A stretch of 64,000 nucleotides of DNA from an uncultured Bacteroidia bacterium (lineage in GTDB: Bacteria; Bacteroidota; Bacteroidia; Bacteroidales; UBA932), in assembly GCA_902768665.1 (NCBI GenBank), contig CACXMA010000002.1, positions 1 through 64,000 of the forward strand, in the 5' to 3' direction. The notes beneath the pieces are model-generated. The model worked only from the letters and a program-made list of their open reading frames with translations, had not been told where the DNA came from and did no database searches. Below are positions 4,519 through 45,795 of the stretch, one piece after another. Positions within the stretch are counted from its first letter, which is position 1. Every line of letters starts with the position of its first letter. The position numbers and the translations under genes were made by a program.

Positions 4519-4564
4519 CCCACAATTAACCGTGAGACAGCATTTTTGGCGACTGAGATTTTCT

Positions 4565-15663: not shown

Positions 15664-15702
15664 TTACCCGCAAAACTATCCGCTAAAAAACCTAGCCACG
15701 AA

Positions 15703-17913
15703 ATGATACAGTACGTAGTCAAAAGAGACGGCCGCCGCGTCGAATTCAACAACCAGAAAATCGTCGCCGCCATCCTCAAAGCCATGGCCGTCACCGAGAA
15801 GGGAGAGGACATCGTCCTCGCAGCACAGATCGCAGACAAGATTTCCCACCTCCCCAAGCAGGAGATGAGCGTCGAGGAGATCCAGGACTGCGTGGAGAAT
15901 GAACTCATGAACGGCCCCCGCCAGGAAGTCGCGAAGAAGTACATCGCCTACCGCAACAAGCGCAGCCTCGCCCGCAAGGCCAAGTCGACGGAAATCTTCC
16001 AGACCATCATCGAAGCCCAGGCCAACGACGTCACCCGTGAGAACGCCAACATGAACGCCGACACCCCGGCGGGCATGATGATGAAGTTCGCCTCCGAGTC
16101 GACGAAGCCCTTCGTGGACGAATGCCTGCTGGCCGACGACGTCCGCCAGGCCGTGGAGAAGAACTACATCCACATCCACGACAAGGACTACTACCCGACC
16201 AAGTCCCTGACCTGCATCCAGCACCCGCTGGACCTCATCCTCGAGCACGGTCTCAAGGCCGGCCACGGCGAGTCCCGCCCCGCCAAGCGCATCGAGACCG
16301 CGAGCGTCCTCGCCTGCATCTCCATGGAGACCGTCCAGAACGAGATGCACGGCGGCCAGGCCATCCCCGCCTTCGACTTCTACCTCGCCCCGTATGTCCG
16401 CAAGACCTTCGAGGAAGAGGTGGACAAAATTTCCGAAATCACCGGTGAAGACTATTCCGCCCTCAAGGAAGTCAAACTCGACGACTATATCCGCCGCGAC
16501 CTCGCCGGCCTGCGCGGCAGCGAGCGCGCCCTCCAGCACGCCGTCAACCAGACCGTCAGCCGCACCCACCAGGCCATGGAGGCGTTCGTCCACAACATGA
16601 ACACCATCCACAGCCGCGGCGGCAACCAAGTCGTCTTCTCCTCCATCAACTACGGCACCGACACCTCCGCCGAAGGCCGCTGCATCATCCGCGAGATCCT
16701 CAACACGACCTATCTCGGCGTCGGCAACGGCAGCACCGCCATCTTCCCGATCCAGATCTGGAAGAAAAAACGCGGCGTCAGCTACCTCCCGGAGGACCCG
16801 AACTACGACCTCTACAAGTTCGCCTGCAAGGTATCCGCCCGCCGTTTCTTCCCGAACTTCCTCAACCTCGACGCGACCTACAACCAGGACGACGCCTGGA
16901 AGGCCGACGACCCGAAGCGCTACATCCATGAAGTGGCGACCATGGGCTGCCGCACCCGCGTCTACGGCAACAAGTTCGGTCCGAAGACCTCCATCGGCCG
17001 CGGCAACCTCTCCTTCACGACCATCAACATCGTCAAGCTCGGCATCGAGGCCATGCAGGCCAGCGAGGACAGGGACGAGCGCCTGCGCATCTTCTTCGAG
17101 AAGCTCGACTGGGCCCTCGACATCGCCGCCCGCCAGCTCAACGACCGCTTCGACTTCCAGAAGACCGCCCTCAAGAAGCAGTTCCCGCTGCTGATGAGCG
17201 GCCTGTGGCTCGGCAGCGGCAAGCTCGACGACAACGACAGCATCGAATCCGTCATCAACCAGGGCACCCTCTCCATCGGTTTCATCGGCCTCGCCGAATG
17301 CCTCATCGCCCTCGTCGGCAAGCACCACGGCGAAAGCGAGGAAGCCCAGGAGCTCGGCCTCCGCATCGTCGAGCACATGGCCGGCAAGATCAACGGCTTC
17401 GCCGAGACCTACCAGCACAACTTCACCTTCCTCGCCACCCCGGCGGAAGGTCTCTCCGGCAAGTTCACCAAGCGCGACAAGAAGACATTCGGCATCATCC
17501 CCGGCGTCACGGACAAGGACTACTACACCAACTCCAGCCACATCCCGGTCTACTACCACTGCACCCCCGAGCACAAAGCAAAGATCGAGGGCCCGTACCA
17601 CAAGTACGAGAACGCCGGCCACATCTTCTATGTCGAAGTCGACGGCGACGCCACGCACAACCCCGAGGCCATCATGCGCATCGTGGACCTGATGGACAAG
17701 TACGACATCGGCTACGGTTCCGTCAACCACAACCGCAACCGCTGCCTCGACTGCGGCTACGAGAGCGCCGAACCGAACCTCGAGGAGTGCCCGCACTGCC
17801 ACGGACACCACATCGACACGCTTCAGCGCATCACCGGCTACCTCGTCGGCACGACCAACCGCTGGAACTCCGGCAAGCTCGCCGAGCTTCACGACAGGGT
17901 TGTCCACAAGTAA
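15703..17913 (+). CDS. nrdD: Anaerobic ribonucleoside-triphosphate reductase (class III)
   Basis: A 736-residue enzyme. The N-terminal ATP-cone (about 1-90) begins MIQYVVKRDGRRVEFNNQK; I start at 15703 because this is where homology to the cone begins. The body includes the NrdD blocks MHGGQAIPAFDFYLAPYV, NTIHSRGGNQVVFSS and NSSHIPVYYHC. The C-terminus has the zinc motif CLDCGYES then CPHC, followed by the glycyl radical region RITGYLVGTT. It reduces ribonucleotides to deoxynucleotides without oxygen, which indicates an anaerobic life. nrdG follows directly. Codons are strongly GC-ending and uniform, like a highly expressed gene. Confidence 0.96.
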   Translation: MIQYVVKRDGRRVEFNNQKIVAAILKAMAVTEKGEDIVLAAQIADKISHLPKQEMSVEEIQDCVENELMNGPRQEVAKKYIAYRNKRSLARKAKSTEIFQTIIEAQANDVTRENANMNADTPAGMMMKFASESTKPFVDECLLADDVRQAVEKNYIHIHDKDYYPTKSLTCIQHPLDLILEHGLKAGHGESRPAKRIETASVLACISMETVQNEMHGGQAIPAFDFYLAPYVRKTFEEEVDKISEITGEDYSALKEVKLDDYIRRDLAGLRGSERALQHAVNQTVSRTHQAMEAFVHNMNTIHSRGGNQVVFSSINYGTDTSAEGRCIIREILNTTYLGVGNGSTAIFPIQIWKKKRGVSYLPEDPNYDLYKFACKVSARRFFPNFLNLDATYNQDDAWKADDPKRYIHEVATMGCRTRVYGNKFGPKTSIGRGNLSFTTINIVKLGIEAMQASEDRDERLRIFFEKLDWALDIAARQLNDRFDFQKTALKKQFPLLMSGLWLGSGKLDDNDSIESVINQGTLSIGFIGLAECLIALVGKHHGESEEAQELGLRIVEHMAGKINGFAETYQHNFTFLATPAEGLSGKFTKRDKKTFGIIPGVTDKDYYTNSSHIPVYYHCTPEHKAKIEGPYHKYENAGHIFYVEVDGDATHNPEAIMRIVDLMDKYDIGYGSVNHNRNRCLDCGYESAEPNLEECPHCHGHHIDTLQRITGYLVGTTNRWNSGKLAELHDRVVHK

Positions 17914-17919
17914 TTGTTC

Positions 17920-17945
17920 GTCATGCCCGACCCGATCGGGCATCT
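17920..17945 (+). repeat. GTC-arm-loop-arm-CT palindromic repeat between nrdD and nrdG
   Basis: GTC is followed by arm ATGCCCGA (17923-17930), loop CCCGA, the exact complementary arm (17936-17943), then CT. It has the same frame as the repeats in sufD, aroA, aroB and the suf leader, though with a different arm sequence. It fills almost the whole gap between the nrdD stop and the nrdG start and would form a hairpin in the shared mRNA. Confidence 0.8.
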
Positions 17946-35314: not shown

Positions 35315-36904
35315 TTATTCCGCCTTTTTTGGCAATCTTGCAGCGGGGAGAGCCTGCGGCGGGATGTTCCGGACCTGGTTCTCGAAATCATCGCGGTCGC
35401 CGGCCGCGCCGTTCTTGACGGACACCTTGTAATTATAAATGGTGCTCACGGAATAGTGCAGCATGGAGGCAATTTCCTTGGAGTCGTCGATGCCGAGACG
35501 GATCAGGGCGAAGATACGGATCTCGGTACTGAGCAGCTCTCCCTTCCGGGGACGGACCTGCGCGTCGGGCCGGAGAAGCGCGTTGAACTGGGCGACGAAA
35601 TCGGGGTAGATGCCGAGGAAGGTCTCGTCGAAGATGCGGTAGAAATTATTCAGGGCGTCTTCCGTCCGCGTCGAAGTGGAAATCTCTTTCAATAGTTCCT
35701 CCGAACGGCCCTGCTTGAGGAGCTTCCGCGTGTGATGGTCTTCCTGCTGTAGCATGGCGACATTGGCGGAAAGATAACCGAGGAACTGGGCGATGTAGGC
35801 CTCCTTGAGCTTTCCCGCTTCCTGCAGACGGTGCTGGGCCTGCCGGAGCTCCCGGGTCCGCCGGGCTGTCCCGTACACGGCCAGAACAAGCATGAGGACC
35901 AGGATGGAGAGGGCGATGATGCCCATCACCTTCATCCGGGACATATAGGCCTGGCGCTCCTCATACTTCTCCTCGATGGTCAGGAAGAACTGGGAGATCT
36001 GCCAGGGTCGCAGCTTGGAATTGTACGCCAGGGCATCTTCCTGTGCGATGCGGAGATAATGGAACGAGCGGTCGACGTCCGTGTCCACGATCATCTGCGA
36101 TAGAATCGTCAGGGATGCATAGTCGCGGACGGCATTGACCATATCCGCCTCGGCCGACAGGAGCAGCTGGCGGAATTGCTCCTGCTCGTTGTGCTGTTGC
36201 CAGGCGCTTTCCGACAGATCGTAGTGGTAGATGGCGGCGGCATGGGAAAACGGCGGGACCATCTCCAGCAGAAGCCGCCCCACGCTGTCCGCCTCCGCAA
36301 AGCGGTACGAAGCCATCAGCGCGTCCATCTCCAGGCGGCGGTACAGCTCGCTCCTGGGCTCAAGCAGACCGAACAGACGGTCGCGGTAAACGGCCCGGTC
36401 CGGGATGGACAGGCGCTCCACCATGCCGGAATTGCCGCTGAGGTCGCGGCTGAACTCGAACAGCGCGAAGTAGTAATCGACCTTCTGCCCGTCGGTCAGG
36501 GACGTCGTATCCGTCCGGAGGTAGAGCCGGTCGTAGGCCTCCATATAGCTGCCGGACTTGACATAGAGATAGCCCAGGCGGATGCCTGCCGTCTGCTCCA
36601 GTTCCGCATTGCCGGCGGCGTACTCCTGCGCCTGCTTGAGGTAATACTGCGTCGAGTCGAACTGATAGGAGAAAAAGGCATCGGCAAGGTCCATGCAGGC
36701 GTCGAACCGTCCTATGTCCGTATGGGCCCGGCGCAGGCGGTCGCGAAGGATGGAAAGGCTCTCCTGCTTGCGGGATTCGTAATTTCCACGCTCGCGGATA
36801 TAGCGGTCGAGCTCATCCAGCAGCCCCTTGTCAATCGGAGCCGAAAAGGCCGGCAGGAAGGCCAGCAGGGAAGCAAAGATGCTGAGCAGGCGTTTCATCA
36901 TCAT
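35315..36904 (-). CDS. DUF6377-like membrane regulator: TPR sensor, one helix, C-terminal HTH
   Basis: A 529-residue protein. A signal peptide (about 1-22) and TPR-like helices (about 25-310) are periplasmic, followed by one membrane helix (about 325-345: MGIIALSILVLMLVLAVYG), a coiled coil, and a C-terminal LuxR-like helix-turn-helix (about 465-500: FALIRLGIDDSKEIASMLHYSVSTIYNY). This order matches the DUF6377 group of Bacteroidales regulators, often beside polysaccharide loci. The start overlaps the sufD stop (TAATG), so it would be expressed with suf. Targets may be the lipoprotein at 33064 or the SusC locus; neither is shown. Confidence 0.8.
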   Translation of the reverse strand: MMMKRLLSIFASLLAFLPAFSAPIDKGLLDELDRYIRERGNYESRKQESLSILRDRLRRAHTDIGRFDACMDLADAFFSYQFDSTQYYLKQAQEYAAGNAELEQTAGIRLGYLYVKSGSYMEAYDRLYLRTDTTSLTDGQKVDYYFALFEFSRDLSGNSGMVERLSIPDRAVYRDRLFGLLEPRSELYRRLEMDALMASYRFAEADSVGRLLLEMVPPFSHAAAIYHYDLSESAWQQHNEQEQFRQLLLSAEADMVNAVRDYASLTILSQMIVDTDVDRSFHYLRIAQEDALAYNSKLRPWQISQFFLTIEEKYEERQAYMSRMKVMGIIALSILVLMLVLAVYGTARRTRELRQAQHRLQEAGKLKEAYIAQFLGYLSANVAMLQQEDHHTRKLLKQGRSEELLKEISTSTRTEDALNNFYRIFDETFLGIYPDFVAQFNALLRPDAQVRPRKGELLSTEIRIFALIRLGIDDSKEIASMLHYSVSTIYNYKVSVKNGAAGDRDDFENQVRNIPPQALPAARLPKKAE

Positions 36905-37593
36905 TACAGGTGGCGGACGGCGGATTCGACACGGGCCCGGAGCGCTTCCCTTTCATCAGGATCGGCCACCTTGTCGATGACCGGGGACAGGAAGGAAAGC
37001 ATCTGGAGAATGCGTGCCTCGGCCTCGGGGATGCCGCGGGAACGCATATAGAACTGTTCGTCCTCGTTGAGCCGTCCGACCGTGGCGCCATGGGAGCACT
37101 TCACGTCGTCGGCATAGATTTCCAGCTGCGGAAGGGTATCCACGACCGCCGTCTCGGAAAGCAGCAGGTTGTGGTTTTCCTGGTAAGCTTCGGTCTTCTG
37201 GGCATCCGGAGCGACGATAATCCGGCCGTCGAAGCGGACGCGGGCCTCTCCTGCGACGATGCCCTTGAAAAGCTGATAGGAGACGCAGCCGGGAACGCGA
37301 TGGTGCAGACGGACGGTATAGCGGACCTGCTCCTCCGCCGGACAGATATAGAGGCCGCTGAGATTGACGCGGGCGCCCTCACCGACAAGGTCTATATCGA
37401 TGGCGACATCCTTGCTCTCCCCCGGGAAAGCCGTCAGCAGCAGATCAAGCGTCTCCCCCGCCCCGACGGTGTATAGATGCCCTGCATTCGCCGGGCATGA
37501 CGACTCCGTCATTCCACGGCCGGTCCGATCCGTCATTCCACGGCTGGTCCGTGGAATCTGCGCGAAGGGATCGATGTAATTCCCGTGTCCCAT
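36904..37593 (-). CDS. sufD: Short SufD-like iron-sulfur assembly protein with repeat-encoded N-terminus
   Basis: A 229-residue protein; SufD normally has about 420-450. The retained C-terminal part is clear: LHHRVPGCVSYQLFKGIVAGEARVRFDG, EAYQENHNLLLSE, QLEIYADDVKCSHGATVG and FYMRSRGIPEAEARILQM. About 12 native residues at the start are followed by some 28 residues encoded by palindromic repeats (37475-37559), and the usual N-terminal helical domain and first half of the beta-helix are absent. SufD joins SufB and SufC as the scaffold for Fe-S clusters. Whether this short form works is open; the Cys and His of the retained part (KCSHGAT) are kept. Confidence 0.82.
   Translation of the reverse strand: MGHGNYIDPFAQIPRTSRGMTDRTGRGMTESSCPANAGHLYTVGAGETLDLLLTAFPGESKDVAIDIDLVGEGARVNLSGLYICPAEEQVRYTVRLHHRVPGCVSYQLFKGIVAGEARVRFDGRIIVAPDAQKTEAYQENHNLLLSETAVVDTLPQLEIYADDVKCSHGATVGRLNEDEQFYMRSRGIPEAEARILQMLSFLSPVIDKVADPDEREALRARVESAVRHL
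37475..37559 (+). repeat. Composite palindromic repeat inside sufD
   Basis: Three parts are visible on the plus strand. 37475-37501 is an inverted copy (AGATGCCC, a GCATTCGC loop, GGGCATGAC). 37508-37531 is a 24-base left-half unit (GTCATTCCACGG then CCGGTCCGATCC). 37532-37559 is a full unit: GTC, arm ATTCCACGG, loop CTGGT, matching arm, CT. All lie in the reading frame of sufD near its N-terminus. Confidence 0.9.
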
Positions 37594-37596
37594 AGC

Positions 37597-38337
37597 CTAG
37601 AAGCGGTCAAATCCGCCCGCCTCGATCTCGTCGGCGAGCTCGGGGCCGCCGCTGGCGACAATTTTTCCGGCCTTGAGCACATGCACGTGCGTCGGACGGA
37701 CATAGTCGAGCAGCTTGCGGTAGTGGGTAATCACGATGGCGGCGTTCTCGGCGGTGTGAAGCGCATTGACGCCGTCGGCGACGATGCGGAGGGCATCCAC
37801 GTCCAGACCGCTGTCCGTCTCGTCGAGGATGGACAGTTTCGGCTCAAGCATCGCCATCTGGAAGATCTCGTTGCGTTTTTTCTCGCCGCCGGAGAAGCCG
37901 ACGTTGACCTCGCGCTTGGCAAATTCGGGGCGCATCTTCACGAAAGCCATCTTCTCCTTCTGCAGTTTGAGGAAGTCGCCGGCAGACAGGGGCTCCAGCC
38001 CGGCGGCCTTGCGACGCGCGTTGACAGCCGTCTTGAGGAAAGAGGTGATGGTCACGCCCGGAATCTCCACCGGATACTGGAAACTCAGGAAGATGCCCGC
38101 CCAGGAGCGCTCCTCCGGAGCCATGGCCAGCAGGTCCTTCCCATCGAAAAGCACGCTGCCTCCCGTAACTTCGTACTGCGGCTTTCCGGCCAGGACGGCG
38201 CTGAGGGTGCTTTTTCCGGCGCCGTTCGGGCCCATCACGGCATGGATCTCGCCGGGGGCTATGGTGAGGTCGATCCCTTTGAGGATTTCCTTTTCGGCGA
38301 TGCCGGCGTGGAGGTTCCGTATCTCGAGTAGATTCAT
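37597..38337 (-). CDS. sufC: Fe-S cluster assembly ATPase SufC
   Basis: A 246-residue ABC-type ATPase of normal length. Walker A is GPNGAGKSTLSAVLAG, the Q-loop FLSFQYPVEIPG, the family signature FSGGEKKRNEIFQM and Walker B LSILDETDSGLD. It drives the SufB-SufD scaffold in Fe-S cluster building, in the cytosol. It lies three bases before sufD and two bases after pnuC. Confidence 0.96.
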   Translation of the reverse strand: MNLLEIRNLHAGIAEKEILKGIDLTIAPGEIHAVMGPNGAGKSTLSAVLAGKPQYEVTGGSVLFDGKDLLAMAPEERSWAGIFLSFQYPVEIPGVTITSFLKTAVNARRKAAGLEPLSAGDFLKLQKEKMAFVKMRPEFAKREVNVGFSGGEKKRNEIFQMAMLEPKLSILDETDSGLDVDALRIVADGVNALHTAENAAIVITHYRKLLDYVRPTHVHVLKAGKIVASGGPELADEIEAGGFDRF

Positions 38338-38339
38338 AA

Positions 38340-38924
38340 TCAGGCTTTTTTACGATAAAGTTTCATCCAGGTGTAGAGCGACCACACGCCGTTGACGAGG
38401 TAAAGGCCGCTGACTACGGACATGAAGTAGTTGCCGACCAGCAGGTGGAGGGCGATCTGCGTGCAGTTGACAAAGAGCCAGGCGATCCAGCAGTCCCATT
38501 TCTTCATGGCGGAGAGCAGCTGGGCCATCAGGATCAGCGCCGTCACGCAGCAGTCGAGGTAAGGGTGCGGGTCCGCCGGGAAGAGGCGGTCCAGCAGGAC
38601 GCCCCACACGGCCGCGACCAGCAGCACGGAGCTGATGGACAGGATCCGCTGCGGCCAGGTCAGCATGCTGACTTTCAGCGACTTCTCATTCTCGGAGCTG
38701 CGCTCTTCCTCCCGCGGGTGCGTCCAGCGGTAGTGGCCGAGGATGTTGATGGCGAGCGAGACGGGCTGCAGGAGCAGCATCGCCAGCAGGTTCCGTTTCC
38801 AGAACAGCACGAAGAGGGCGGCGGTATAGAGATAGCCGACCCAGAAGTTATACTTGGAGTTCCGGCCCGCGAGAAACACGCAGGTCAGGCCGAGCACGGA
38901 ACATATGAGGTCAATCCAATGCAT
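38340..38924 (-). CDS. pnuC: PnuC-type nicotinamide riboside/NMN transporter
   Basis: A 194-residue membrane protein with about seven hydrophobic segments. The family pattern includes SKYNFWVGYLYTAALFVLFW, QPVSLAINILGHYRW and LLSAMKKWDCWIAWLFVN, typical of PnuC. PnuC proteins take up nicotinamide riboside for NAD salvage. Its position between sufB and sufC, with the sufB stop and pnuC start sharing one base, is unusual. A link between NAD uptake and Fe-S assembly cannot be claimed from position alone. Confidence 0.85.
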   Translation of the reverse strand: MHWIDLICSVLGLTCVFLAGRNSKYNFWVGYLYTAALFVLFWKRNLLAMLLLQPVSLAINILGHYRWTHPREEERSSENEKSLKVSMLTWPQRILSISSVLLVAAVWGVLLDRLFPADPHPYLDCCVTALILMAQLLSAMKKWDCWIAWLFVNCTQIALHLLVGNYFMSVVSGLYLVNGVWSLYTWMKLYRKKA

Positions 38925-40366
38925 TATCCGACAGATCCTTCAAGAGAGACTTGGAGCAGTTTCTGCGCTTCCACCGCGAACTCCATGGGGAGGCGGGAAA
39001 GCACTTCGCGGGCATAGCCGTTGACGATGAGGCCCACGGCGTCCTCGGGGCCGATGCCGCGCTGGTTGCAGTAAAAGAGCTGGTCCTCGGAGATCTTGGA
39101 GGTCGTGGCTTCATGCTCCACGACGGCCGTGGGATTGGCGCTGCGGATCTCCGGGAAAGTGTGGGCACCGCAGCGCGAACCGATCAGCAGACTGTCGCAC
39201 TGGGTATAGTTGCGGGCGTTCGCCGCACCGGGATTGATGCGCACGAGACCGCGGTAGCTGTTCTGGCTGCGACCGGCGGAAATGCCCTTGGAGATGATGC
39301 GGCTGCGGGTGTCGCGGCCGAGATGGATCATCTTCGTGCCCGTGTCGGCCTGCTGGAAATTGTTCGTGACGGCGACAGAGTAGAACTCCGAGGAGCTGCG
39401 GTCGCCCATCAGCACCGTCGAGGGGTATTTCCAGGTGATGGCGGAACCGGTCTCGACCTGCGTCCAGCTGAGGTGGCTACCCTCGCCGCGGCAGAGACCG
39501 CGCTTGGTGACGAGGTTGAGGATGCCGCCCTTGCCCTCGGCGTCGCCGGGGTACCAGTTCTGGACGGTCGAATACTTGACGTCGGCGCCCTTCTCGACAA
39601 TGATCTCGACGACGGCGGCATGGAGCTGCTGCTCGTCGCGCATCGGGGCGGTGCAGCCTTCCATGTAACTGACATAGGAATCCTCGTCGGCGACGATGAG
39701 CGTGCGCTCGAACTGGCCGGTGCCACGGGCGTTGATGCGGAAGTAGCTCGAGAGCTCCATCGGGCAGCGGACGCCTTTGGGGATATAGCAGAACGAACCG
39801 TCGGAGAAAACGGCGCTGTTCAGCGCGGCGAAATAGTTGTCGCCGCTCGGGACGACGGTCGCGAGATACTTGCGGACGAGGTCCGGATGCTCCCGGACGG
39901 CCTCGGCGAAGGAGCAGAAGATGATGCCCTTCTCGGCCAGCGTCTTGCGGAAGGTCGTCGTGACGGACACCGAGTCGAAAACGGCGTCCACGGCCACTAC
40001 CCCGGCGAGGACATCGCGTTCCTTCAGCGGGATGCCGAGCTTTTCGAAGGTCTCGGCCAGCTTCGGGTCGATCTCCTTCGGGCGGTCCTTGTCCTTTTTC
40101 GGAGCGGCATAGTAGATAATGTCCTGGAAATCAATCTCCGGAAGGTCGAGGTGCGGCCAGCGTGGCATTTCCATCCGCTGCCACTTGCGGAAGGCGTCGA
40201 GACGGAACTCGAGCAGCCACTCCGGCTCCTCTTTCCGTGCGGAAATGAGCCGGATGATGTCCTCGTTGAGGCCCTTGGGGATGAATTCCTGCTCGACGTC
40301 GGTGACGAAGCCTTCCTTGTACTCCCCGGTGGTGAATTCCTGTATGATCTTCTCGCTGTCAGCCAT
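38924..40366 (-). CDS. sufB: Fe-S cluster assembly protein SufB
   Basis: A 480-residue scaffold subunit of normal length. Typical blocks are [68 protein letters not shown], and near the end [21 protein letters not shown] with [15 protein letters not shown]. It is the main Fe-S scaffold of the SUF system. It opens the operon, behind a -7 box at 40446-40453 and a palindromic repeat (40372-40436) that lies in the leader. No cysteine desulfurase SufS is in the window. Confidence 0.96.
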
Positions 40367-40371
40367 ATTCT

Positions 40372-40436
40372 GTCATTTCGACCAAGCGCAACGCTCTACT
40401 TGTCATTTCGACCAAGCGCAGCGCGTGGAGAAATCT
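40372..40436 (+). repeat. Palindromic repeat in the suf leader, half unit plus full unit
   Basis: A 30-base left-half unit starting GTCATTTCGACCAAGCGC (40372-40401) is followed by a full 35-base unit (40402-40436) with outer arms ATTTC and GAAAT and the flanks GTC and CT. It lies between the suf -7 box and the sufB start, five bases from the ATG, so its hairpin could affect sufB translation. Confidence 0.85.
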
Positions 40437-40445
40437 ATTAGCCAG

Positions 40446-40453
40446 CAAAGATA
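40446..40453 (-). promoter_or_regulatory. -7 element of the suf operon
   Basis: TATCTTTG on the minus strand. A TTTG at 40476-40479 is 22 bases upstream, slightly longer than the consensus. The leader would be about 75 bases and contain the palindromic repeat. Confidence 0.5.
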
Positions 40454-40476
40454 GCAAATAATCCCGAATCAGCGCC

Positions 40477-40504
40477 AAAAAAGCCCGGCGGAAAACCGTC
40501 GGGC
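40477..40504 (-). terminator. Terminator of the small lipoprotein gene
   Basis: GCCCGACGG and CCGCCGGGC pair on the minus strand around a TTTT loop, followed by six T (40477-40482). Confidence 0.85.
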
Positions 40505-40524
40505 CCATAGAGTCTTGGTAAAGA

Positions 40525-40749
40525 CTAAAGATCGAGGGCATCAACTTTGGCCTGGTCCTCAGCACTGAGACCTTCGTACCACTCCAAATACTCGGCAGTC
40601 TTCTTCATGACACCTTCGTAATCACCTTTCTCTGAGAGTTCCTGAATCTCCTGGGCATAATCCTTGGCTTTGTCCTCAACGGACTTGCAAGCTGCGACGG
40701 AAAGCATGAGCAGAAGACCGGCAGCAGCCGCGACTAAAACTTTCTTCAT
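40525..40749 (-). CDS. Small lipoprotein
   Basis: A 74-residue protein with lipobox LSVAAC. The mature part is one or two amphipathic helices (SVEDKAKDYAQEIQEL, GDYEGVMKKTAEYLEWYEGL) ending DALDL. I use the ATG at 40749 because the longer frame has no signal character before it and the promoter lies at 40799-40830. Similar small helical lipoproteins are widespread in Bacteroidales and have no assigned role. It stands alone with its own terminator. Confidence 0.78.
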   Translation of the reverse strand: MKKVLVAAAAGLLLMLSVAACKSVEDKAKDYAQEIQELSEKGDYEGVMKKTAEYLEWYEGLSAEDQAKVDALDL

Positions 40750-40798
40750 AACGGTTGTGTGTTTTGTGTTAATAAAAGGAAAATGTGTAGTGTTGGGA

Positions 40799-40830
40799 CA
40801 AATTTCGAAAAAAAACACGACAACTCCAAA
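40799..40830 (-). promoter_or_regulatory. Putative promoter of the small lipoprotein gene
   Basis: TTTG (40827-40830), 20 bases, then GAAATTTG (40799-40806) on the minus strand; the -7 box differs from TANNTTTG at its first base. Confidence 0.45.
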
Positions 40831-40842
40831 TAAATGAAAAAC

Positions 40843-41220
40843 TTACCGGGCGGCGATGCTCTCGATTTCGACGAGGGCGCCTTTCGGGAGGGTCTTGACG
40901 GCGAAGGCGCAGCGGGCCGGGAACGGAGCGGTGAAGAACTCGGCGTAGACCTCGTTCATGGCGGCGAAATCGCCCATGTCGGCAAGGAATACCGTCGTCT
41001 TGACGACGCTCGCAAGGCTGAGGCCGGCCGCTTCGAGGATGGCCCTCGTGTTGAGCAGGGACTGGCGGGTCTGCTCCTTGACGCCGCCCTCCGGGAAGGC
41101 ACCCGTGGCGGGATCGATGGGGAGCTGACCGGAAACGAAAACGAGGCCGTGGCCGCTGTCGACGGCCTGGCTGTACGGGCCGATGGCGGCCGGTGCTTTT
41201 TCAGTGTGGATAGGTTTCAT
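40843..41220 (-). CDS. ridA: RidA family reactive intermediate deaminase
   Basis: A 125-residue protein of typical length. IGPYSQAV, FVSGQLPIDPATG and the C-terminal FPARCAFAVKTLPKGALVEIE identify the RidA family, with the catalytic Arg in FPARCAF. RidA hydrolyses reactive enamines and imines, such as 2-aminoacrylate, to keto acids and ammonia. It is six bases after aroC in the same direction, so it is probably expressed with the aromatic operon. Confidence 0.93.
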   Translation of the reverse strand: MKPIHTEKAPAAIGPYSQAVDSGHGLVFVSGQLPIDPATGAFPEGGVKEQTRQSLLNTRAILEAAGLSLASVVKTTVFLADMGDFAAMNEVYAEFFTAPFPARCAFAVKTLPKGALVEIESIAAR

Positions 41221-41226
41221 AGTATA

Positions 41227-42330
41227 TTAAAGGGCTAAATCTACAAGGACGATGGCGGCCATGGCCTCGACGACAACCGGCGTACGGAGCGCGAAGCAGG
41301 TGTCATGGCGGCCGGGAATACCGGCTTTGGCGATGCTGGAAGTGGGCTTGAAGGCCACGCGGAAGACGACGGGATTGCCGTTGGTGAGACCGCCGTTGAT
41401 GCCGCCGGCGTGGTTCGTCACGGGCGGCTGCGGACGGTGGTGATGGCAGCAGTGGTGGCCTTCGCCCTCCTCGCCATGGTGGCAGCAGTGGTGCTCCCCG
41501 CCTTCGTCATGGCCATGGCACTCGTGACCTTCCTCGTGGCAGTGGCACTCATGGCCTTCCTCGCCGTGATGGCACTCGTGCCCCTCCTCGCCTTCGTGGC
41601 AGCAGTGGTGCTCCGGGAAGGGGTCATTGTGCTCGGAGCCTTTCATCCGCGCCGCGGCGAATCCGTCGCCGAATTCGATGCCGCGAACGCCCGGGATGGC
41701 GAAAACGGCGTGGGCGAGGCAGGACTCGACGCTGTCCCAGAACGGCTCGCCGAGACCGACCGGAAGGCCTTCCACCGCGCACTCAACGATGCCGCCGAGG
41801 GAATCGCCCTCTTTCGCAGCCGCCTCCAGGGCAGGCTTCCATGCCGCGGGATCGGTCTGTCCGCCGACCTCGACAAGATGCGCCTCTATCCGGGCAAAGT
41901 GCAGGAGCTTCTTCGCGACGACACCGGCCGCGACCACGGCCACGGTCATGCGCCCGCTGAAGGCTCCGCCGCCGCGGGGGTCGTTGAAACCGCCGAACTT
42001 GAGGTTGGCCGTGAAGTCGGCGTGGCCCGGACGGGGGTTCTTGCGGAAGGACTCGTAATCCTCGCTGCAGGTGTCCTCATTATAAAAAAGGATGGTCAGC
42101 GGAGCGCCGGTCGTGCGGCCCTGGTAGACGCCGCTGACGATATCGGGCACATCGGATTCCTTTCTCGGGGAGGTCCCGGGCGCACCGGTCCTGCGGCGCT
42201 GCAGGTCCTCCGTAAAGTCTTCCGGGGACAGCGGCATGCCGGGGAGCATCCCGTCGATGGTCACACCGACGCAGCTTCCGTGGGATTCGCCGAAAATGCT
42301 GACTTTAAATCTGTTGCCAAAGGTATTCAT
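41227..42330 (-). CDS. aroC: Chorismate synthase with a His/Cys-rich insertion
   Basis: A 367-residue enzyme. The N-terminus MNTFGNRFKVSIFGESHG and blocks RKNPRPGHADFT, NDPRGGGAFSGRMTV, GSEHNDPF, TNHAGGINGGLTNG and GRHDTCFALR are all family-typical. Between GSEHNDPF (231-238) and TNHAGG (305-310), where chorismate synthases have a short loop, about 62 residues (240-303) consist almost only of His, Cys, Glu and Gly, with about 20 His and 10 Cys. The enzyme makes chorismate from EPSP using reduced FMN. The insertion may bind metal. It is the last aro gene of the operon and overlaps the upstream gene by four bases. Confidence 0.93.
   Translation of the reverse strand: MNTFGNRFKVSIFGESHGSCVGVTIDGMLPGMPLSPEDFTEDLQRRRTGAPGTSPRKESDVPDIVSGVYQGRTTGAPLTILFYNEDTCSEDYESFRKNPRPGHADFTANLKFGGFNDPRGGGAFSGRMTVAVVAAGVVAKKLLHFARIEAHLVEVGGQTDPAAWKPALEAAAKEGDSLGGIVECAVEGLPVGLGEPFWDSVESCLAHAVFAIPGVRGIEFGDGFAAARMKGSEHNDPFPEHHCCHEGEEGHECHHGEEGHECHCHEEGHECHGHDEGGEHHCCHHGEEGEGHHCCHHHRPQPPVTNHAGGINGGLTNGNPVVFRVAFKPTSSIAKAGIPGRHDTCFALRTPVVVEAMAAIVLVDLAL
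41422..41613 (-). repeat. Repetitive His/Cys/Glu codon tract in aroC
   Basis: Imperfect repeats of units encoding GEEGHECH and HHCCHHGEEG, clearly related to each other, as would arise by slippage or unequal exchange. The tract codes for the insertion in chorismate synthase at residues 240-303. Confidence 0.85.
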
Positions 42331-44492
42331 AGTTTGTTGAAGATTTCGTTGAAGGTCGGGAAAGACTTTGCGACGCAGCTTTCGTCGTCGATTTCAATGG
42401 GGGCGTCCGCACCGAGGGAGGCGACGCGAAGGGCCATCGCCAGGCGGTGGTCGCCGCGGGAACTGTAGCGGCCGCCGTGCAGCAGCTGGTGCCGCAGAAG
42501 ACGCCTCACAAGGCTCTGGCCGCCGACGGTCATGCAGTCGTCCTCGATGCTGGCCGAAACGCCCATCTGCCGCAGCATATCGAGGATGGCGGCTGCCCGG
42601 TCGGTCTCCTTGTGGGCCAGGCGCTCGGTGCCGTAGATGCGGCTCCGGCCCGGGCAGAAGGCCGCCAGGACGGCCACGATCGGGAAAAGGTCGGGGCAGT
42701 GATTGAGATCCGCCTCAAAGCTGCTGAGCGGCGCACGGACGACATGGATGTTTCCGGCGTTCTCCCCCTCCTCGATGCGGGAAATGCCAGCGCCGGCGTC
42801 GGTCAGGATATCGAGGATGGAGATGTCCGCCTGCAGGGAATCCGCCTCAAGACCAGCCACTTCCACCTCACCGAAGAGGGCTCCTGCGACGAGGAAATTC
42901 GCCGCGCCGCTCCAGTCGCCTTCGATGCGGAAGTCCGCCGCCTTCAGGCGCTGGCCGCCCTTGATCCGGAAGTTGAGTCCCGTGCAGTATGTCCAGTCCT
43001 GTGTCTCCATGAAGCGGCTGTCCCCCTCCATCTCGCTGCCGACAGTGACGCCGAACTTTTTCAGCACGTCGAGCGTGATGAAGAGGTAGGGAATGCTTTT
43101 CGGCTCCGTGACATAGAGGCGCGAGTCGCCATCGCACAGCGGCAGAGCCGTCAGCAGGCCGGACAGCAGCTGGGAGCCGCCCTTGCCGGACAGCTCGGCC
43201 CGGCCGGGAATCAGCGGCCCGCGGACAGTCAGCGGCAGGTAGCAGTCAAACGGCCGGGCGCTGTCGAAGCGCTCCTCCGGCTGCAGACGCCCGCCGAAAG
43301 CCGCGAGATAGTCGTGTGCATTGGTCAGCGGCCGTCCCAGCAGGGTCTTTTCGCCGGTCACCCGCACGGGACCCTCCGAGAGGACGGCCAGCAGCGGAAT
43401 CAGCAGCCGCGTCAGCAGACCCGACTCGCCGGTATGAAAAACCGGCGGAACAGATGCCCCGCATTCGCTGGGCATGACGGGCGCGTCATTACCCGGCTGG
43501 TCCTTTCCGTCATCACCCGGCTGGTCCTTTCCGTCATTACCCGGCTGGTCCGGGTAATCTTTCAGGCATCCCGGCGCCGCGGCAATGCCGGTAATCACGA
43601 GGGCATCCCCCTCCCGCCTGACCGTCGCCCCCAGCGCCTCGGCCACGCCGATTGCGGCCTCGCTGTCGCCGCAGGGTGTATACCCGCCGAGGTGCGATGT
43701 CCCCTCTGCCAGCGCCGCACAGAGAATGGCCCGCTGCGCAAAGCTCTTCGCCGCGGGCATGGGAACCGCCGCAGCCGGAGAAATGGGCACGAAAACGGGC
43801 TTTTTTGTGCCCGAATCCGCATTTTCCCTTCCATCGGGCACGAAAACGGGCTTTTTCGTGCCCGTTCCATACACCGCCTCCCGCATCTCGGCCGTCGTCC
43901 ACTGCCCGGGCGCCGTCGCCTCACCATCGCTGACGCAGGCATAGGTAAACGGCGCACCCCGGCGAAGGCACGTCAGGCGGCTTTCCCGGCCGGCCTCCCC
44001 CATCGCAAAGGCGATGAGCCGCGCCCGCGAGGGCTTGTCCTGATAGAGCCACAGCACGCGCTGCGCATCGGCGGCGGTATGAGCCGTGGTCACGTTTTTC
44101 ACGATATCCGCGCCGGCACCGTGGCAACGTTCCGCATAAGAGCGAAGAACCACCTCCGCCGGCGTCTCTTTTTCGTCATGGTAAGACACGATGAGGGTCG
44201 TTCCATATTCCTCGCACGCACTGCGGATGCGCTTTCGCAAGGCCGCCGGCAGCAGCAGGTCCACGTCCGCAAAACGGGCTCCGGCCTCGATCGCAGCCAG
44301 CATCCGCTCCTCGTCCTCCTCCCGCCGGCAGGTCGCCACGAGCGGCAGGTCCGTCGCCGAAAACAGTTCGGACACATCCTCCACGCTCAGCGGACAGAGG
44401 TCCAGCCGGATCTCCGCCATCTCTATCTCACCGCCCTGCAGCAGGGCCCATATTTCTTCGAGGTTCCGTCCCCGTATCGATGTACAAATCAT
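42327..44492 (-). CDS. aroDA: Fused 3-dehydroquinate dehydratase (type I) and EPSP synthase
   Basis: A 721-residue two-domain protein. Residues 1-212 form a type I dehydroquinase: AEIRLDLCPL, LIVSYHDEKETP with the catalytic His, and DIVKNVTTAHTAADA with the Schiff-base Lys. Residues about 245-721 form EPSP synthase: AKSFAQRAILCAALAEG, HTGESGLLTRLL, GGSQLLSGLLTALPL, and CPDLFPIVAVLAAFCPG. A palindrome pair (43785-43864) encodes the linker, which repeats GTKKPVFVP, and a second repeat block (43452-43560) adds the QPGND-type residues ahead of the GESG segment. It performs two steps of the shikimate pathway. It overlaps aroC and aroB by four bases each. Confidence 0.93.
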   Translation of the reverse strand: MICTSIRGRNLEEIWALLQGGEIEMAEIRLDLCPLSVEDVSELFSATDLPLVATCRREEDEERMLAAIEAGARFADVDLLLPAALRKRIRSACEEYGTTLIVSYHDEKETPAEVVLRSYAERCHGAGADIVKNVTTAHTAADAQRVLWLYQDKPSRARLIAFAMGEAGRESRLTCLRRGAPFTYACVSDGEATAPGQWTTAEMREAVYGTGTKKPVFVPDGRENADSGTKKPVFVPISPAAAVPMPAAKSFAQRAILCAALAEGTSHLGGYTPCGDSEAAIGVAEALGATVRREGDALVITGIAAAPGCLKDYPDQPGNDGKDQPGDDGKDQPGNDAPVMPSECGASVPPVFHTGESGLLTRLLIPLLAVLSEGPVRVTGEKTLLGRPLTNAHDYLAAFGGRLQPEERFDSARPFDCYLPLTVRGPLIPGRAELSGKGGSQLLSGLLTALPLCDGDSRLYVTEPKSIPYLFITLDVLKKFGVTVGSEMEGDSRFMETQDWTYCTGLNFRIKGGQRLKAADFRIEGDWSGAANFLVAGALFGEVEVAGLEADSLQADISILDILTDAGAGISRIEEGENAGNIHVVRAPLSSFEADLNHCPDLFPIVAVLAAFCPGRSRIYGTERLAHKETDRAAAILDMLRQMGVSASIEDDCMTVGGQSLVRRLLRHQLLHGGRYSSRGDHRLAMALRVASLGADAPIEIDDESCVAKSFPTFNEIFNKL
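43452..43560 (+). repeat. Composite palindromic repeat inside the EPSP synthase domain
   Basis: 43452-43478 is an inverted copy (AGATGCCC, a GCATTCGC loop, GGGCATGAC). Two 24-base left-half units follow at 43485 and 43509 (GTCATTACCCGG or GTCATCACCCGG, then CTGGTCCTTTCC). A full unit ends the block at 43533-43560: GTC, arm ATTACCCGG, loop CTGGT, matching arm, CT. The order is the same as in sufD. Confidence 0.92.
43785..43864. repeat. Paired palindromes in the AroD-AroA linker
   Basis: Two copies of a palindrome (43785-43812 and 43835-43864), each with outer arms GGGCACGAAAA and TTTTTNGTGCCC around CGGGC, separated by 22 bases. They encode the repeated peptide GTKKPVFVP twice in frame. Confidence 0.88.
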
Positions 44493-45646
44493 AGCAGTTC
44501 CAATAAAACTTCCGGCTGCAGTACTCTCTCTTCCGTCTCACCTACACGCCGAAGCAGGATAAAGCGCACCCCTTCCGTTTCCCCCTTTTTGTCGCGGTGC
44601 ATGGCATCCACAAGGCTCGCAATCGGATAGGGACAATCCACCGGCAGGCCGCAGGCCGCGAAATCGGCCGCCAGCCGCCCGGCCAGCGAGGCAGACCCCA
44701 CGGACAAGCCATGGGGTGACGGGGTGGACAAGCCATGGGCGGACGGTGCGGACAGGCCACGGGCGGACGGAGCGTCATTCCACGGCTTGTCCGTGGAATC
44801 TTCGCCAAGGGCCTCGCTCAGCCGTGCCGCAAGGACCACGCCCATCGCCACGGCCTCGCCGTGCCGGATGTCGTCCCCGCGCCGCAGCGCCTCGTGCTCG
44901 ATGGCATGGGCAAAAGTATGCCCGAGATTGAGCTTCCGCCGCTCCCCCGTCTCATACAGGTCGCGCTCCACAATCCCTTCCTTGATCTCTGCCGCCCGGC
45001 CAATCAAATCCCGCAACCTGTCCTCAAAAACGCCTGTTTTGGAGGACAGACCGGCCAAAACCATGGACTTGTCCTCAGAAAAGGCCTTTTTGGAGGACAG
45101 CCCGGAGAAAAAGCGGACAGCATCGGCATAGAGGGCCGCGTCAGAGAGCAGGAAAGTCTTCAGCAGCTCGGCGACGCCGCAGCGGAACTCCCGCAGCGGC
45201 AGCGTCGAAAGCACTTCCGGACAGAGCCAGACCCATTCCGGCTGCCGGATCACGCCGAGCATATTCTTGTAGCCGTCGAGGTTCACGCCCGTCTTGCCGC
45301 CGATGCCGGCATCCACCTGCGCCAGGAGCGTTGTCGGGATATTGGCATAGCGCACGCCGCGCTTATAGATCGAGGCCGCGAATCCGGCCATGTCCGTCAG
45401 CGTCCCGCCGCCGAGCGCCACGACGAGCGCCTTCCGCGTCGCTCCGGCCTCCAGCAGAAAGCGGCAGACCGTCAGCACGGAATCCATCGTCTTGGCCTGC
45501 TCCGAAACCTCCAGCGCCAGGCTGCCGCGGAAAGCACCGCCCGACAGCAGTCTCGCCGCAAACGCCTCAACTGCCGCGTCATAGACGAGGTAGCATTCCG
45601 GCTCTCCCGAGAGCGAAGGAAGGGTCTGTAGAAGCCGCTTTTCCAT
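44489..45646 (-). CDS. aroB: 3-dehydroquinate synthase with two repeat-encoded insertions
   Basis: A 385-residue enzyme; family members usually have about 350-360. The NAD and metal-binding blocks are present: ALGGGTLTDMAGFAASIYKRG, PTTLLAQVDAGIGGKTGVNL, GYKNMLG, and LNLGHTFAHAIEHE with RHGEAVAMGV. Two additions stand out: RFFSGLSSKKAFSEDKSM and the repeated GLSSK, coded by the palindrome pair at 45018-45100, and a Ser/Pro/His stretch (SARGL, SAHGL, SPHGL) coded by repeats at 44702-44801. It makes 3-dehydroquinate from DAHP. ATG at 45646 chosen; a -7 box ends only seven bases upstream. Confidence 0.93.
   Translation of the reverse strand: MEKRLLQTLPSLSGEPECYLVYDAAVEAFAARLLSGGAFRGSLALEVSEQAKTMDSVLTVCRFLLEAGATRKALVVALGGGTLTDMAGFAASIYKRGVRYANIPTTLLAQVDAGIGGKTGVNLDGYKNMLGVIRQPEWVWLCPEVLSTLPLREFRCGVAELLKTFLLSDAALYADAVRFFSGLSSKKAFSEDKSMVLAGLSSKTGVFEDRLRDLIGRAAEIKEGIVERDLYETGERRKLNLGHTFAHAIEHEALRRGDDIRHGEAVAMGVVLAARLSEALGEDSTDKPWNDAPSARGLSAPSAHGLSTPSPHGLSVGSASLAGRLAADFAACGLPVDCPYPIASLVDAMHRDKKGETEGVRFILLRRVGETEERVLQPEVLLELL
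44702..44801 (+). repeat. 24-base tandem repeat ending in a full palindrome, inside aroB
   Basis: Three 24-base units start at 44702, 44726 and 44750 (GGACAAGCCATGGG-type), followed at 44774-44801 by a full 28-base palindrome: GTC, arm ATTCCACGG, loop CTTGT, matching arm, CT. The period is exact and is a multiple of three, so the frame of aroB is kept. Confidence 0.92.
45018..45100. repeat. Paired palindromes inside aroB
   Basis: 45018-45049 has arms CTGTCCTC and GAGGACAG; 45070-45100 has GTCCTC and GAGGAC, each with an A-run/T-run inner part. They are 20 bases apart and encode the repeated GLSSK peptide of AroB. Confidence 0.88.
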
Positions 45647-45652
45647 AGAATA

Positions 45653-45660
45653 CAAAGATA
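45653..45660 (-). promoter_or_regulatory. -7 element directly upstream of aroB
   Basis: TATCTTTG on the minus strand ends seven bases before the ATG at 45646, predicting a near-leaderless mRNA for the aro operon. It lies back to back with the tRNA-Leu promoter. Confidence 0.5.
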
Positions 45661-45668
45661 ACAAATGT

Positions 45669-45711: not shown

Positions 45712-45795
45712 GCCCTGGTGGCGGAATGGTAGACGCGCTGGACTCAAAATCCAGTATCCCTTAAAGATGTGCGGGTTCGAGTCCCGCCCGGGGCA
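45712..45795 (+). tRNA. tRNA-Leu (anticodon CAA)
   Basis: The acceptor stem GCCCTGG pairs with CCGGGGC (one G-T pair). The anticodon stem CTGGA/TCCAG encloses the loop CTCAAAA, giving anticodon CAA. A long variable arm (around TATCCCTTAAAGATGTG) marks a class II tRNA, and GGGTTCGAGTCCC is the T arm. The CCA end is not encoded. It decodes UUG. Confidence 0.95.

Follow-up and report, generated by a model that had tools for sequence, protein, structure and literature searches.

Repetitive extragenic palindromic (REP) sequences with a CGTC tag were defined as a superfamily by Di Nocera, De Gregorio and Rocco (2013; PMC3733652). That paper reports them in Bacteroidetes, with intragenic copies in several species, counts the Rickettsia palindromic elements RPE-4 and RPE-6 among them and finds no transposase association; according to its Table 1, tag-outside (HH) dimers predominate and tag-inside (TT) dimers are rare. 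A Bacteroidetes subclass of REP-associated tyrosine transposases (RAYTs) with atypical REP structures is described in PMC6006769. Here we analysed a stretch of 64,000 nucleotides (the window) from an uncultured Bacteroidia bacterium (Bacteroidales, UBA932; GenBank assembly GCA_902768665.1, contig CACXMA010000002.1, positions 1 to 64,000 of the forward strand). An initial annotation had noticed in it palindromes of the plan GTC-arm-loop-arm-CT inside sufD, aroA and aroB and between genes, and this location was confirmed for the host genes and for the intergenic units. The element is an amplified CGTC-tagged REP that enters protein genes in frame; it has the defining features of that superfamily, in an unusual form. 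Foremost among the new points is a turnover of stems, in which different and well-paired ones occupy the same codon sites in essential genes. The parallel to Rickettsia that had been drawn at the outset agrees with the assignment of RPE-4 and RPE-6 to this superfamily; the view that no such element was described for Bacteroidales has to be narrowed in the light of the 2013 report from Bacteroidetes. Among the open-access titles and abstract openings listed there was no earlier report from this bacterial group, which is weak evidence of absence.

The genome that holds the window (G000; 2.03 Mb in 26 contigs, 88% complete) contains 81 matches to the main unit GTCATTCCACGGCTKGTCCGTGGAATCT at up to 3 mismatches, 43 of them mismatch-free, and the backward-read control gave 0. 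Within about 3 kb around the matched places 83 copies were collected at up to 4 mismatches. Their consensus is approximately C-GTC-ATTCCACGG-CTTGT-CCGTGGAAT-CTGTN, close to 33 bp, with arms of 9 bp and 8 bp that begin mostly with AT and sometimes with AC, and with a loop of 5 bp in the main unit. Because GTC is immediately preceded by C in 79/83 copies, the tag is CGTC; a pyrimidine stands before that C in 73/83. After CT the second base is T in 54/83 copies and the third in 43/83. The unit as originally described therefore keeps its plan, and its conserved part is slightly longer (C before GTC, T-rich after CT). A strict scan of both strands of the window (GTC followed by A, perfect arms of 7-15, a loop of 3-13, then CT) found four hairpins, marked in the table; 100 dinucleotide shuffles gave a mean of 0.02 and a maximum of 1. 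The pattern is thus commoner than in shuffled sequence, a comparison proposed at the outset. Six loci had been assigned to one plan; four hairpins of the window fit it strictly, and the other loci noticed are real and looser (inverted ATGCCC hairpins, tandem repeats).

Beyond this genome the element was sparse. A half-unit pattern matched 69 times in G000 and once each in 5 of 60 relatives, a set without the sister species G085 (below); the control gave 6 matches in the same 60. An exact 27-mer was present in 19 stretches of the species-genome collection, namely 12 from G085, 4 from other metagenome-assembled genomes (MAGs) of Bacteroidales or Bacteroidia and 3, with 4 copies, from a Rickettsiales MAG. 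A second subfamily, GTCATTNCGAGCGNAGNCGAGNAATCT, had 31 matches in G000; its carriers, 12 of 61 genomes, all belong to the same genus. At three loci (L031, L036, L037) arrays with a 40-bp period, built of a half unit and an AGCGCC.GCGGCA.TTGAACC-like spacer, precede a full unit and form a larger composite repeat.

Many copies reside inside protein genes. Coding status was called by a codon model on the 240-bp flanks, an open reading across the unit being part of the test. By this measure 28 of the 83 copies, or 27 of the 81, sit in frame within open reading frames (ORFs) and are open in the frame of both flanks. Another five are flanked by same-strand coding sequence in a different frame, in 3 a stop intervenes between the flanks, and the remaining 47 are without same-strand coding on both sides. 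The in-frame copies use five different readings, (+,2) in 16, (-,2) in 5, (-,1) in 4, (+,1) in 2 and (+,0) in 1; the unit is open in five of its six readings and has a stop in the other. Pfam scores were above cut-off for 23 of 24 further host ORFs. The hosts so identified include Fmt, thiamin pyrophosphokinase (TPK), MiaA, RimM, RsmF, KsgA, MetRS and CysRS, furthermore an ABC-F-like protein, an altronate dehydratase-type protein and others; the names KsgA, MiaA, RsmE, ABC-F and GltD-like were assigned here from Pfam matches. The insert is located between domain matches in MetRS and CysRS and within one in Fmt, GH92 and a HAD hydrolase.

The sites were compared with those of G085, an uncultured Bacteroidales MAG (CAMKRY) considered a sister species (77-91% identity to G000 with a 10-kb query). 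A two-sided match was available at 25 of the 83 sites; the remaining 58 were without one in the G085 loci examined, part of which had been selected for carrying element-like matches. Among the 25 rows there are 20 distinct coding sites, of which the model called 18, the other two being RsmE and sufD; three further rows are of other sites. Inspected by eye, G085 was empty at 12 of the 20 coding sites, i.e. in Fmt, TPK, GH92, MiaA, RsmF, GH77, sufD, aroB, MetRS, the 6-O-methylguanine-DNA methyltransferase gene, ABC-F and a solute-binding protein. It carried the same kind of unit at one (OstA), and a palindrome elsewhere nearby at another (BatD/TPR); at six the place was taken by a different palindrome-like unit. 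All 20 length differences between the two genomes were multiples of three. At the three other rows (C1:85075, C16:2647, C9:69488) the unit was shared, with length differences listed as -18, 0 and 20. Some copies are older than the split of G000 and G085, and others are unmatched between the species. The net insert relative to G085 was 33 bp in the TPK gene and 66 bp for a dimer in the methyltransferase gene, and GH92 had a 33-bp gap; from this we infer a unit of about 33 bp. No target-site duplication, as would accompany a miniature inverted-repeat transposable element (MITE), was visible by eye in these ortholog comparisons, in which flank identities were 75-97%.

In the window genes the proposed absence of the peptides from relatives was borne out. 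Residues 312-348 and 214-236 of aroA are occupied in at most a quarter of an alignment of 29 congener ORFs, some of them partial, and the same fraction applies to residues 288-321 of aroB, again with some partial ORFs. In G085 the sufD, aroA and aroB places were free of CGTC units. The GGGCACG pair of the second aroA insert was missing from it, and a short stretch of doubtful descent was left there. CHSERSEES-like peptides were seen in aroA of other congeners (L126, L131, L133); the underlying repeat may be GTCATTCTGAGCGAAGCGAAGAATCT-like.

A third species was represented by the MAG RUG784 (G087; 40 contigs with 291,536 bases, of which 38 contigs with 264,161 bases were chosen blind to content, and C218 and C94 for their RAYT matches). 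One of its contigs (L092, OMQK01000229.1) is 97.9% identical to G000 over 1,609 bases and seemed to offer a comparison of sites within the species. Matching stretches of other RUG784 contigs are about 75-82% identical to G000. Because the contig with CysRS is only about 77% identical, L092 appears to be misbinned, and a same-species comparison was ruled out.

The six coding sites at which G000 and G085 carry different palindromes are in RimM, RsmE, the HAD hydrolase, the altronate dehydratase-type gene, CysRS and the GltD-like gene. This class, like the CysRS and RsmE occupants, was sorted by eye, and three of its members are imperfect: the HAD unit has short arms around a long interior, that of RimM one mismatch, and that of CysRS starts with GTT instead of GTC. 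The CysRS linker holds a tag-inside dimer in G000, a GTTATCCCGAG...GGGATCT unit in G085, GTCATTTCGA types in the congeners G081 and G075, and a tag-inside dimer with other arms in G087; one row (L253) had no sequence in the segment compared. At one site in RsmE, G061 carries GTCATGGCCGACTTGATCGGCCATCT, G078 GTCATTCCCGACCTGATCGGGAATCT and G075 GTCATCCCCGACCTGATCGGGGATCT; a ATTCCACGG unit of the same orientation occupies this site in G085, the one of G019 has a mismatch, and in several congeners the site is empty. A hairpin-like match without CGTC appearance at the RsmE locus L294 was set aside. In sufD, where G085 is empty, G087 has a dimer with the layout of G000 and a different second arm. 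As a separate observation, the CysRS linkers of G028 and G061 (L244, L245) contain long palindromes of another family, with a common interior (CATTTGCCCG.ACAGGGTCGCGAAGCGAC) and quite different arms.

How do different palindromes come to occupy one codon site? They may be independent insertions into a few tolerant hot spots, without any rewriting in place, and we give this nearly an even chance. At 6 of the 20 sites loops differ as well as arms, congeners with an empty site are interspersed with occupied ones in CysRS and RsmE, and the MetRS and CysRS inserts lie between Pfam domain matches, all of which would be expected of hot spots. However, the ends of the units frequently fall on the same base (GTCATT...AATCTCTTT in RimM and the GltD-like gene, ...ATCTCC in CysRS), and at sufD and CysRS G000 and G087 have the tag-inside layout and its orientation in common despite different arms. 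Alternatively, and a little more tentatively, a protein-coding REP stem may act as a self-complementary cassette and be rewritten in place between species, with a joint change of both arms at one codon site and with tag and loop class staying. If so, essential proteins would gain coordinated multi-residue changes from a hairpin process at the DNA level and not from protein selection.

What moves the unit? The initial annotation had proposed a search for a RAYT. RAYT-like (Y1) genes exist, and the palindromes next to them, where seen, are different ones. In G000 the genome search returned two Y1_Tnp matches just above cut-off; as whole ORFs the two proteins scored 21.0 and 22.6 bits against the Pfam cut-off of 23. 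There were five similarity matches to one Y1 protein. The protein of G000:C1:111575-112381 has no Pfam match, and we call it RAYT-like because it is similar to the first Y1 protein (27% identity, E 1.4e-18), Pfam support being weak. That the element is a classical REP/REPIN mobilised by such a Y1 protein of G000 appears unlikely. It would agree with Y1_Tnp in 7 of 7 carriers tested (the matches of the Rickettsiales MAG being in short frames of 80-115 amino acids) and in 46 of 61 genomes, both sets with G000, and with a CGTC unit 486 bp downstream of the RAYT-like gene G000:C11:55-1164. Against it, RAYT-like genes are present in 45 of 60 relatives without the unit, and of 22 RAYT loci only one had this unit; in three a different CGTC hairpin lay at about 0.7-1.8 kb from the gene. 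A further scan covered 27 RAYT loci, 26 of them placeable, and in at least 5 of the 26 one and the same palindrome stood on both sides of the gene (by eye), never a CGTC one. The 2013 report found no tie between CGTC REPs and a transposase (PMC3733652). A RAYT as dedicated mobiliser was thus supported neither by the Pfam search nor by the flank scans nor by the palindrome search at the loci.

Palindromes adjoining the C1:111575-112381 gene (L165 2015, with more copies at 4524 and 4575) resemble the second aroA insert and a pair in RsmF. In aroA (43785-43864) and RsmF (L069 2304-2382) these GGGCACGAAAA...GTGCCC pairs are about 51 bp apart. From this resemblance RAYT-type palindromes probably also enter genes, as a different element.

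The dimers and the stems characterise the CGTC unit further. Among the 83 copies 21 formed tag-inside dimers, none tag-outside dimers and 11 pairs of the same orientation; at 658 random positions the respective values were 1.4%, 2.0% and 1.4%. In the Rickettsiales MAG with the identical 27-mer (L097, L098, L102) the adjacent pairs listed were tag-outside in 6 of 6. Anchoring on tag, loop and tail alone, in loci largely selected for carrying the unit, yielded 166 matches, 109 with perfect stems. When the 3' arms were re-dealt 200 times the mean was 48 and the maximum 59; backward-read sequences had 5 anchored matches and 0 perfect stems. In the 40 contigs of G087 23 perfect hairpins were present (control 0), 18 of them in the 38 blind-picked contigs, with loops of 6 bp besides those of 5 bp. 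When complementarity was not required 70 matches were obtained there, of which 23 were perfect, 2 had one mismatch (both G-T) and none had two or three, the background peaking at 6 mismatches. Twenty G087 hairpins distinct in stem or loop, from the 25 with at most one mismatch, were aligned. All cells paired (100% vs 84% shuffled; 0/500), and the covariation score was 0.459 vs 0.151 (0/500); slid structures paired at most 45% of cells. Two-sided changes affected pairs 2, 3, 4 and 8, and pairs 5-7 were invariant. In this set neither the number of pairs with two-sided change (4 vs 3.0; 130/500) nor that of further pair types (8 vs 7.9; 339/500) was above shuffles.

Template switching can create hairpins and repair stems in one step, according to PMC8794818. 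Possibly nothing moves in trans, and the hairpins arise and spread through template switching during replication, through slippage and through recombination among the copies; we regard this as unlikely, slightly more so than mobilisation by a RAYT. It could account for the 24-bp tandem half units in all three composites of the window, for the creation and repair of hairpins, and for G087 stems that are perfect despite variable arms, with one mismatch in only 2 of 25. However, mismatch-free copies at 43 places together with the empty sites need copying to new loci, and local switching alone yields neither a fixed CGTC tag nor a small number of fixed loops. The perfect yet variable stems as such can be due to selection for a working hairpin or, equally, to template switching. 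That the hairpins are conserved functional parts of mRNAs or proteins is very improbable: the stems are strongly maintained, yet they occur in unrelated genes and in five different readings, are often absent in relatives and are present outside genes as well.

Probably, then, these are non-autonomous mobile CGTC-tagged REPs that are mobilised in trans by way of their tag and hairpin shape, tolerated in genes, and refilled or rewritten at permissive sites. An enzyme provided in trans would recognise tag and hairpin shape and insert single units, or dimers of the tag-inside type, leaving no visible target duplication. Intragenic copies would persist since the net insert can amount to 33 or 66 bp, five of six readings are open and the sites tolerate an extra peptide. 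The arms may vary because pairing alone matters; selection for mobility, template switching at the hairpin or the two together would keep them complementary, and the same permissive sites would be refilled or rewritten repeatedly. The initial view of a mobile or amplifying element tolerated in coding DNA is supported by the copy number, the in-frame copies and the empty G085 sites. Several points weigh against this explanation. The mobiliser was not found and movement was not observed. The coding call rests on the codon model, which missed RsmE and sufD, and since an open reading is built into the test, the absence of closed-reading copies is no evidence. Units shared at OstA and three other sites mean that part of the spread predates the G000/G085 split. 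The length of 33 bp derives from three sites, and the insertion ends are unproven without two strains of the same species. G085 and G087 are MAGs of unstated completeness. Finally, the stems of G000 are less clean than those of G087 (198 matches, of which 71, 8, 1 and 3 had 0, 1, 2 and 3 mismatches).

The genus constitutes a dense natural experiment: codon-by-codon comparison at the same essential-gene sites is possible for many related species. Empty, occupied and re-occupied states exist side by side and could reveal whether selection or template switching is the cause of the perfect stems. It shows how small DNA elements can supply new peptides to housekeeping proteins.

In the window, three of the four strict hairpins belong to composites. 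Those of sufD and aroA consist of an inverted ATGCCC-type hairpin that faces at least one 24-bp half unit and a full unit, whereas that of aroB has inverted half units opposite the full unit. Tandem repeats of 24 bp (37505-37551, 43484-43551, 44701-44774) are part of every one of the three.

Table. Positions of the palindromic units and their host genes in the 64-kb window.
Feature	Position	Strand	Remarks
8-5-8 subfamily hairpin GTCATGCCCGACCCGATCGGGCATCT	17920..17945	+	strict hairpin
sufD (SUFBD_core), host gene	36904..37593	-	
Inverted ATGCCC-type hairpin, tag-inside dimer partner in sufD	37475..37501	-	GTCATGCCC at 37493, GGGCATCT at 37475
Half unit GTCATTCCACGGCCGGTCCGATCC	37508..37531	+	
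Full unit ATTCCACGG-CTGGT-CCGTGGAAT, near sufD start	37532..37559	+	strict hairpin; site without unit in G085
Intergenic GTCATTTCGACC...AGAAATCT units	40372..40436	+	no such unit there in G085
DHquinase_I + EPSP_synthase fusion (aroD-aroA)	42327..44492	-	hosts two different palindrome insertions
Inverted ATGCCC-type hairpin, dimer partner in aroA	43452..43478	-	
Two 24-bp half units, GTCATTACCCGGCTGGTCC... and GTCATCACCCGGCTGGTCC...	43485..43532	+	
Full unit ATTACCCGG-CTGGT-CCGGGTAAT in aroA	43533..43560	+	strict hairpin; low occupancy in 29 congener ORFs; not in G085
Second aroA insertion, pair of GGGCACGAAAA...GTGCCC palindromes	43785..43864	.	unrelated
aroB (3-dehydroquinate synthase), host gene	44489..45664	-	
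Inverted tandem half units, 24-bp period, in aroB	44701..44773	-	
Full unit ATTCCACGG-CTTGT-CCGTGGAAT in aroB	44774..44801	+	strict hairpin; site without unit in G085

The 8-5-8 hairpin overlaps the listed ATG of a minus-strand ORF (15676-17943), the start codon of which may therefore derive from the element. A variable loop of aroB contains two TGTCCTC...GAGGACA palindromes (45019-45048 and 45070-45099); at this place G085 is similar with altered arms, and other congeners carry different repeats. Tandem repeats of 27 bp, histidine-rich by translation reading, are located within chorismate synthase (aroC; 41501-41601). Between 36800 and 47400 the sole match to known RNA families was a tRNA at 45712-45795.

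Compared with known systems, the unit resembles RAYT-associated REPs and REPINs as a short palindrome that forms dimers and is amplified within one genome. In contrast, those have another sequence without a CGTC tag and are located beside a RAYT-like gene, where the CGTC unit is not so placed. Neisseria dRS3 (CGTC-1), likened here by description, is of the same superfamily and occurs mostly in large clusters, as stated in PMC3733652. The RPE-4 and RPE-6 elements, as presented there, are similar as short palindromes in frame in many protein genes. They too were likened by description, the only sequence link being the exact 27-mer in a Rickettsiales MAG; they belong to another phylum, and the tag-outside pairs of that MAG are the opposite of those in this genus. 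Closest are the CGTC REPs at large, as characterised in the 2013 report (PMC3733652). These also have the unpaired CGTC at one end, a stem of 8-9 bp that usually starts with an A:T pair, a loop of 4-5 bases and a 3' tail; they form families with complementary stem variants, have some intragenic copies and show no tie to a transposase gene, which here was judged on RAYT loci only. Two differences concern features that are typical and not defining: the tail is CT followed by a G/T-rich stretch here and mostly CCA there, and the dimers are tag-inside here and tag-outside there. Furthermore, in this genus half units are arranged in tandem, about one third of the copies are in frame in ORFs, and related species carry different stems at the same sites.

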